Of a stretch of 64,000 nucleotides of DNA, positions 14,402-17,828 are shown in pieces. The stretch lies in the NCBI RefSeq assembly GCF_020217425.1, contig NZ_CP084090.1, positions 868,001 to 932,000 of the forward strand, read 5' to 3'. The position numbers were made by a program, and so were the translations under genes. The DNA comes from Halomicrobium urmianum. GTDB lineage: Archaea; Halobacteriota; Halobacteria; Halobacteriales; Haloarculaceae. A model generated the notes under the pieces. The model saw only the letters and a list, made by a program, of their open reading frames with translations, was not told the origin of the DNA and ran no database searches. Numbering within the stretch: position 1 is the first letter of the stretch; every line of letters starts with the position of its first letter.

Positions 14402-16147
14402 ATGTTTCGCCAGACCCGCGCGGAGGTCGAGGACGCCCTCGAAGGGGCGCTGGCCGCGCTCGACCTCCCCACCGACGACCTCGGGATCGAGGAGCCGCCG
14501 GAGGACGTCCCGGCCGTACTGGCCTCCAGCGTCGCCTACCGGCTGGCCGGCGAGGTCGGGGCCGCCCCGCCCGAGGTCGCCGGTCAGGTCGCCGACGAGA
14601 TCGACGCCGACGAACTGACCTACGTCGACGGCGTCGCGACGCAGGGACCGTACCTGAACTTCCTGCCGAGCGAGGCCTACTTCGCCGAGACGCTCGATGC
14701 CGCACAGGACGACGACTACGGCCGCCTGCCCGACCGCGACACCAGCCTCGTGCTGGAGCACACCTCTGCCAACCCGACCGGTCCTGTCCACGTCGGCCGC
14801 GCCCGCAACCCCATCATCGGGGACGCGCTGGCCCGCGTGCTCGACTTCGCCGGCTACGACGTCGACCGCCACTACTACGTCAACGACGCCGGCCGCCAGA
14901 TCGCCGTGTTCACCTGGGCCTACGAGACCTTCGACGAGGCCGACCTCCCCGAGCCAGAGCGGGACTCTCCCGAGTACGAGATGGTCCGCTACTACCGCAA
15001 GGGCAACTCCTTCCTCGAAGAGGGCGACCCCGACGAGGTCGAGGAGGCCGAAGACGAGATCCAGTCGATCCTCCAGGGCCTCGAAGCGGGCGACGACGAG
15101 GCCTACGAGCGCGTCTCGGAGGTCGTCGACACCGTCCTCTCGGGCATGCGCGGGACCCTCGAACGCCTCCCCGCCGAGTTCGACGAGTTCGTCAAGGAGA
15201 CGCGGTTCATGCGCGACGGCTCCACCGACGACCTGGTCGACCGTCTGCAGGACCTCGACTGCGCCGTCTACGAGGACGACGCCTGGCAGCTGGACCTCCC
15301 CGGGTTCGAGAAGAACCTCGTCTTCCTCCGCTCGGACGGCACCTCGCTGTACACGACGCGGGACCTGGCCCACCACGAGTGGAAGCTGGAGAACTACGAC
15401 GAGGCCGTCACCGTCCTCGGCGAGGATCACAAGCTCCAGGCCGACCAGCTGAAGGCGACGCTCGAGTTGCTGGGCCACGACACCGACCGCATCCGCTCGG
15501 TCCACTACTCCTGGGTGAACCTCCCCGAGGGCGGGATGAGCACTCGCGAGGGGACCGGCGTCGACCTCGACGACCTGCTCGACGAGTCAGTCGACCGCGC
15601 CCGGAAGGAGGTCGAACGGCGCATGGACGAGCGGATCCGCGACGACGACCTGACCGAGGCCGACGTCGAGCGCATCGCCCGTCAGGTCGGTATCGGTGCC
15701 GTCCGCTACGACGTCGTCTCCAAGCAGCCCACGAAGGGCATCACCTTCGAGTGGGAGCGCGCCCTGGACTTCGAGGCCCAGTCGGCCCCCTACGTCCAGT
15801 ACGTCCACGCGCGCTGCTGTGGTATCTTGGACGAGGCCGGCGAGACGCCCGACCCGGACGACGTCGACGCGTCCCTGCTCGAGACCGACGCAGAGCGCGA
15901 CCTCCTGCGGGCCGTCGCGCGCTTCCCGGCCGTAATCGAGGAGAGCGCCGGCGAACTCCGGCCCCATGTCGTCGCCACCTACACCCGGACGCTGGCCGAG
16001 CGGTTCAACGCCTTCTACCGGGAGTGCCCCGTCCTCGACGCCGACGACGAGACTCGCGAGGCCCGCCTCGCCCTCGTGGCCGCCGCCCGCCACGCGGTCG
16101 CCAACGCCCTCGACATGCTCGGCGTCGAGGCGCCCGACTCGATGTAG
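14402..16147 (+). CDS. argS: Arginine--tRNA ligase
   Basis: This 581-residue class I synthetase charges tRNA-Arg. The HIGH motif appears as [13 protein letters not shown] near residue 122, and the KMSKS region as GMSTREGT near residue 377, in which the canonical Lys is replaced. The arginyl-specific N-terminal domain (residues 1-110) and the C-terminal DALR anticodon-binding helices (about 460-581) are both present. The gene stands alone with its own promoter. Its end faces a small membrane protein gene on the other strand. Confidence 0.96.
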
Positions 16148-16161
16148 CGCCGCGGGCGATG

Positions 16162-16383
16162 CTACCGGTCTGAGTCGGTCAAGCGCTTCAGGAGCGATCC
16201 GACGACGGAGACGCTAATCAGCAGCACCACTCCGACACCGGCGAGTCGAAACGAGAGCGCTTCCGAGAGACCGAGCAGCTCACCGAACACCGGCGTGTCG
16301 AGTGGGACGCTCCCGCCGACGCCGAACGCGAGGAGGAAGATTCCGAGCGCGGCGAGCAGCCCGGCGGCGTCCTGCCGGTCCAT
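16162..16383 (-). CDS. Two-span small membrane protein
   Basis: This 73-residue protein has two hydrophobic helices (LLAALGIFLLAFGVGG and RLAGVGVVLLISVSVVGSLL) joined by a short loop. It has good haloarchaeal codon use. It is convergent with argS, only 14 bp apart. No family or function is recognisable. Confidence 0.6.
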   Translation of the reverse strand: MDRQDAAGLLAALGIFLLAFGVGGSVPLDTPVFGELLGLSEALSFRLAGVGVVLLISVSVVGSLLKRLTDSDR

Positions 16384-16473: not shown

Positions 16474-16846
16474 TCAGTCCAGAGCGAGGTCGCCCACTCG
16501 CTCGTAGGCCGTCTCGAGCCGCTCGTTCTCGTGGTAGCGGATCATCTGACTGCGGACGTCGTAGTCGACGACGCCGGCGTCCGCCAGTTTCGGGAGGTGG
16601 TGGTGCTGGAGGGCGACCTGCACGTCGTCGTGGTTCGGCTGCGCTCCCTGCTTCTGTCCGATCCGCAGAACGATGTGTTTCGTCGCTTCCTCGAACGGTC
16701 CGGCGTTGCCGGGCTGGTCCATCAGGTACTCTAGAAGCGCGCGTCGGTGCTGGTTCGCCAGAATGTCGAGAACGGCATCGAGAGAGCGGGATCTCGTGCA
16801 GCCATGGTTCGTCAGGCTCGTTCGACGGCTCCTCGTTTGGCGCCAT
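16474..16846 (-). pseudogene. DUF7344-type winged-helix regulator, out of frame at a GA repeat
   Basis: The C-terminal part (SLDAVLDILANQHRRALLEY onward, about 100 residues) resembles the haloarchaeal DUF7344 winged-helix family. A natural-looking N-terminus, MAPNEEPSNEPDEPWLHEIP, begins at ATG 16846 but is in a different frame. The switch falls on a GAGAGAG tract (16780-16786; CT repeats in the coding strand). Adding one dinucleotide joins the two parts into a 124-residue protein. It is either a decayed gene or one whose frame is set by repeat number. If translated as is, only GTG starts upstream are available in the C-terminal frame. Confidence 0.6.
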
Positions 16847-16952
16847 TCGTGCTCACATCTACCATACGTCACGCTCTTCTCACAGATGGTTCTAGTCACC
16901 CAGAACACAGTTCGCGAGCGAGCCGAGCGTTCGCGGGGAGAGCGGCCGGCGA

Positions 16953-17795
16953 TCAGTTGAACAGGCCGAATACGCCGCCTGACTCGTCGTCATCGCCGGT
17001 ATCGGCCGACCCCTCCGCCTCGGCCGCGTCCGCTTCGTCGTCCTCGACGAACCACTCCTCCTCGACGACCGTTTCGAGGTCGCCGGGGTCGGCGCCCGTG
17101 AAGAAGATCTCGTCGAGGTGCGCGGTCAGCCCCTGGAAGGCCCGGGCGGCGCGGCTATCGGGCGCGTTCAGCACCAGGGGTTCCCGGCTGGTGGCCTCCA
17201 GGTCGTCCGGAACGACCGCGAGGAGGTGGTGGCCGAGTTCGTCGGCGATGGCGGGGACGTCGGTGTGGCGGGTGACCCGGTTGAGGACGGCGCCGATGAC
17301 CTCGCCGCCGTCGTCGATGCGGTCGGCGAGCTGGGCCGTCTTGACTGTGTCCCCGACGGCGACGTCGTCCGGCGTCGTCACCAGCAGCACGCCGTCGGAG
17401 AGTCCCAGCGGTACGGCCACCTCGTGGCTCAGGCCCGCTCCCGTGTCGATCAGGACCGCGTCGTAGGCGTTCCGGAGCGTCCTGATCACCTTCCGGAGCT
17501 TGGCGGGGTCCGCGTCGGCGAACGCGTCCAGGGACTGCTCGCCGGGAATGATGGTCAGCCCGCCCGGCGCGTCCGTCAGGGCGTCGCTGACCGCCGCGCC
17601 GCTGGCGAGGACGTCGTGGACGCTGGTCCCGTGCTCGATACCGAGCATAGCCCCCAGGTTCGCCATGCCGAGGTCCGCGTCGACGACGACCACGTCGTGC
17701 CCCATCTCCTGCAGGGCGACCCCGACGTTGACCGCCGTCGTGGTCTTGCCGACCCCGCCTTTACCGCCCGCTATCGTACAGACGTACCCCGCCAT
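16953..17795 (-). CDS. MinD/ParA-type P-loop ATPase
   Basis: This 280-residue ATPase has the deviant Walker A motif GGKGGVGKTTT at residues 10-20, a VVVDADLGMANLG switch region and a DTGAGLS segment. It lies in the MinD branch of the SIMIBI class, whose haloarchaeal members position cell-surface or motility machinery. A usual MinD ends in an amphipathic helix. This one instead has a long acidic tail (residues 225-280) ending GGVFGLFN, whose hydrophobic tip may serve that role. The ATG at 17795 excludes an unlikely longer frame. Confidence 0.88.
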   Translation of the reverse strand: MAGYVCTIAGGKGGVGKTTTAVNVGVALQEMGHDVVVVDADLGMANLGAMLGIEHGTSVHDVLASGAAVSDALTDAPGGLTIIPGEQSLDAFADADPAKLRKVIRTLRNAYDAVLIDTGAGLSHEVAVPLGLSDGVLLVTTPDDVAVGDTVKTAQLADRIDDGGEVIGAVLNRVTRHTDVPAIADELGHHLLAVVPDDLEATSREPLVLNAPDSRAARAFQGLTAHLDEIFFTGADPGDLETVVEEEWFVEDDEADAAEAEGSADTGDDDESGGVFGLFN

Positions 17796-17828
17796 ATTTC
17801 GTCTATCTCCCCCCAAGGAAGGCAATCA

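Follow-up and report, generated by a model that had tools for sequence, protein, structure and literature searches.

At positions 16474-16846 of a 64,000-nucleotide stretch of the Halomicrobium urmianum genome, G000:C1:868001-932000 (referred to here as the window), the gene for a putative regulator is split between two reading frames that join at a short GA repeat. The question raised by this locus is whether the repeat serves as a switch, whether the break is an error in the sequence, whether the regulator is made in spite of it or whether the gene has been lost. We consider it probable that the locus is a recent pseudogene of an accessory regulator, itself probably acquired horizontally, from which two bases have been lost by slippage. 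The features concerned are:

16474-16846, reverse strand: DUF7344 gene disrupted by a frameshift, with its native ATG at 16846 and its stop at 16474-16476
16778-16846, reverse strand: 5' piece, MAPNEEPSNEPDEPWLHEIPLSR, which shares the frame of the native ATG and leaves it after 22 native residues
16474-16788, reverse strand: 3' piece of 104 codons, free of stops, that carries the DUF7344 domain in the second frame
16780-16786, forward strand: GAGAGAG (CTCTCTC on the coding strand), where the net two-base shortening relative to the homologs falls
16844-16860, reverse strand: start-codon region AGATGTGAGCACGAATG, which by eye resembles GGATGTGAGTGAGAATG in homolog L054 and TGATGTGAGTGTGAATG in homolog L055

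Read from ATG 16846, the gene gives the 5' piece followed by out-of-frame residues as far as 16406. The domain lies in a frame that is already open further upstream and ends with the stop at 16474; the two frames meet at GAGAGAG. The site was compared in ten close homologs with 58-78% identity in the domain (L052, L053, L054-L058, L068, L069 and L078; L053 is the same record as L035, from Natrarchaeobius chitinivorans), while the weaker homologs L059-L067 were excluded. All ten cross it in one unbroken frame that reads [I/L/V][P/L]LS[L/V]DA; the window lacks two bases at this point. In N. chitinivorans, the one relative found in a scan of genome_contigs, the gene is a single open frame of 124 residues, 76% identical and starting MTPNNESSDESGEQSLHEIPLSLDAVLDILA... 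The break is thus more than two frames overlapping by chance, given the continuity of the homologs, the 2 nt missing from the window and the matching length of 124 amino acids. Relative to the homologs, the reading frame is broken as in a frameshifted pseudogene.

Comparison with the homologs also identifies ATG 16846 as the native start. The 5' piece compares with MAPNEGNSFDNQPLGDIPLS in L055 and MTPNNESSDESGEQSLHEIPLS in L035, L055 begins MAPNE, as does the window gene, and the bases 5' of the window ATG resemble those of L053-L055 when compared by eye. The similar bases, the MAPNE start and the continuity of the homologs at the site argue that this N-terminus is right. The original prediction, made without database searches, had taken the N-terminal frame as the natural one, placed it one dinucleotide from the domain frame at GAGAGAG and proposed that an added GA unit would give an uninterrupted 124-residue protein. 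These points were borne out: the homologs are continuous across the site in ten cases out of ten, and a different native N-terminus was looked for in them and found in none. The plasmid gene L078 (3998-4312) is annotated from the domain onward, with 104 codons. Its frame continues without a stop back to an ATG that lies 18 codons before the annotated start and fits the homologs; the annotation probably begins the gene too late.

The domain frame matches DUF7344 (PF24035) with 60.2 bits (cut-off 27.8), and with 61 bits in a genome-wide search. This search gave 31 DUF7344 domain matches in the genome, all above the cut-off, with no stop within the matched stretch of the other 30. A match at G000:C1:1301086-1301199 of the same genome spans profile positions 39-76 only and is possibly a truncated copy. 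The description of the product as a winged-helix regulator is plausible, given the DUF7344 match and a plasmid relative, 38% identical, that is annotated as winged helix-turn-helix, but no confident fold was obtained to go with it. The model of the L035 homolog is of low confidence (mean pLDDT 53.5 from a two-row alignment) and consists of helices, then two strands and a last helix. No solved relative was found by sequence at E up to 1, and ArsR-type models gave only a match below the cut-off (23.2 of 55 bits). A literature search for 'DUF7344' found no paper.

The gene occupies a junction with the following borders and contents:

14402-16147, forward strand: gene that we take to be arginyl-tRNA synthetase (argS); left border of the junction
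16162-16383, reverse strand: 73-codon ORF, judged by eye likely to encode membrane helices; it shares the insert with the DUF7344 gene and, like it, lies between argS and the minD-like gene
16953-17825, reverse strand: MinD/ParA-like ATPase; right border of the junction

Genome comparisons used one genome per species. argS adjoins the minD-like gene in all seven genomes of the genus searched, the window's included, and in the six others both the DUF7344 gene and the 73-codon ORF are missing beside them (E 1e-3). The aligned ends of argS and minD lie about 25 bp apart in L073 and L076. L074 and L075, where the alignment of minD is incomplete, have gaps of about 90 and 110 bp. The space is larger in L071 (about 805 bp, ~696-1500) and L072 (about 660 bp, ~2323-2980) and has no extended similarity to the window's insert. 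Since other DNA is found there in these two genomes, the junction may be prone to insertion. The L071 and L072 DNA is partly similar to each other. A search of 193 other genomes of the class gave no match to the 73-codon ORF, and its only profile match, to DUF7860, is sub-threshold.

The DUF7344 gene itself has a patchy distribution. Its best match elsewhere in the genus is 37% identical. Among 146 genomes of the family, only the window genome gave a match better than 1e-20. In the class, where at most 12 candidates were scored in each genome, 17 of 391 sampled genomes, its own included, matched at E <=1e-20. In a related family, 6 of 125 genomes have a match at E <=1e-28. Plasmid homologs were found in 49 records, a single one of which (64.1%) exceeds 60% identity. 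None of the frames flanking the gene in the window recurs beside the homologs. Matches between the homolog flanks are confined to sets such as L057/L069, L058/L078 and L054/L068/L078, the remaining matches being to the gene itself and its mirrored frames. A viral origin was also considered, with no phage match at E 1e-5 and no pattern match in viral_contigs. Horizontal gain in the window's lineage would be simpler than repeated loss, and the distribution suggests that the gene was probably gained in this way into the argS-minD space.

The course of events may be proposed as follows. An accessory DUF7344 regulator gene would have been acquired horizontally into the argS-minD intergenic space, carrying a CT run that arises incidentally from Leu-Ser-Leu codons. 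One dinucleotide unit would then have been lost from this run, most simply by a single replication slippage. The native ATG would now yield 22 native residues and an unrelated tail, and because translation from it leaves the frame at that point, the domain is presumably not made.

If the gene has been lost, the loss has left little trace elsewhere in the sequence, as no clear excess of decay was seen in the domain frame, whether in stops (none in its 104 codons), private changes or pN/pS. Where the other seven sequences are invariant (L058, L068 and L078 being left out of the count), the window has three private changes (R14H, W23M and S31P); the others have 0-3, including three in the intact L055, and once L058 is included the window has none. 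The pN/pS ratios, which are rough because pS is high for many pairs, are 0.15-0.46 for the window against nine relatives and 0.10-0.40 for the other pairs. The window exceeds all other pairs in just two comparisons, those with L057 and L058 (0.46 each), which give a weak hint of relaxation. The lack of clear long decay implies that the loss is recent, that the break is an error or that the gene is still read. An independent homolog, L068 (G453:C12, about 1501-1806), has an in-frame TAA inside the domain, so loss of the gene has occurred elsewhere too. The L068 genome also carries an unbroken relative, L069, on another contig.

An error of sequencing or assembly would mean that the living strain has a longer tract and an ordinary intact gene. 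This would account for a domain frame without clear decay and for a break that is unique to the window among the ten homologs compared; singleton frameshifts are described in one study as the likely result of indel mutation or sequencing error (PMC3711429). However, the 4.25 Mb genome is assembled in 6 contigs and is 99.31% complete. The tract is only 7 nt long and is not a homopolymer; short non-homopolymer tracts are a poor site for most platform errors. We regard such an error as unlikely, and an ordinary recent pseudogene as the likelier of the two.

There are two ways in which the domain might instead still be produced: translation could begin upstream in the domain frame, at GTG 16908, to give 144 aa, or the ribosome or the RNA polymerase could slip by -2 within the CT repeat. 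The domain frame is indeed open upstream past GTG 16908 and shows no clear relaxation, and in five of the ten homologs the frame likewise stays open for some distance before the ATG. In the other five, however, an in-frame stop precedes the ATG by 0-2 codons, and the extended frame overruns the stretch that resembles the homologs' start context. For both reasons the upstream extension is unlikely to be ancestral, and an upstream start is not favoured. Long chance frames also come with GC-rich DNA. As to a slip, reading the sequence shows that the UCU codon can re-pair exactly two bases back, which would restore ...PLSLDA..., but the slippery run is present in none of the ten homologs and there is thus no sign of conserved recoding. 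Continued production of the domain by either route seems to us very unlikely.

It had also been proposed that the GA tract is a phase-variation site, at which slippage between tract lengths would switch the regulator between an on and an off state within the population. In favour of this idea, the net change amounts to exactly one dinucleotide unit and falls inside the repeat, and both pieces are otherwise intact. Three tests, of tract frequency, tract conservation and the presence of MutS, do not favour it. The tract has only 3.5 units and is neither longer nor commoner than composition predicts in the 64-kb window: GAGAGAG is rarer than expected, with 10 occurrences on both strands against 19.7 (sd 4.6) in 100 shuffles, 99 of which contained it at least 10 times. 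Nor is the repeat kept at the same site, the longest CT or TC runs within 18 bases around it in the ten homologs being 2, 2, 2, 3, 3, 5, 5, 5, 5 and 5 nt. With runs of this length, the CT run looks like a product of Leu-Ser-Leu codon choice rather than a kept repeat. Finally, MutS-type genes, with a predicted role in mismatch repair, are present: there are four MutS_V matches in the genome, three of them above the cut-off and two of those strong.

A review does not count tracts of chance-expected length as evolved phase variation and gives a 7C tract as its example (PMC11868660). Among the papers listed on phase variation in archaea or haloarchaea, the titles and abstract openings mention no dinucleotide switch in archaea. 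The tract being short and common, with no run above 5 nt in ten homologs, phase variation is unsupported here, and we would give it hardly any credence. Decay, which the original prediction had named as the simpler alternative, is favoured over it. The broader idea that a dinucleotide repeat sets the frame of a haloarchaeal regulator, through a DNA slippage switch or a -2 translational slip, so that its expression is bet-hedged or kept at a low level, is in our view highly improbable. If true, phase variation or a -2 bypass would, in our judgement, be an unusual case for archaea. As a recent pseudogene, the locus matters little beyond annotation: one accessory regulator, probably gained earlier, has apparently been lost, and the genome that carries it has 31 matches to its domain.

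The locus can be compared with three kinds of known system. By its profile match, the window copy is a member of DUF7344 (PF24035), a helix-turn-helix-like family that is abundant in haloarchaea; what sets it apart from an ordinary member is that a frameshift severs it from its own start. The unbroken homologs of N. chitinivorans (L035) and the Halomontanus rarus plasmid NZ_CP135524.1 (L078) share 76% and 64% domain identity with it and have a similar N-terminal pattern, but each is a single open frame with no CT run above 5 nt at the site, and their neighbours are different. As in bacterial phase-variable loci based on simple sequence repeats, the frame of the window gene changes by one repeat unit within a coding tract; unlike theirs, its tract is of chance length and is not conserved, and only one state of it was seen.
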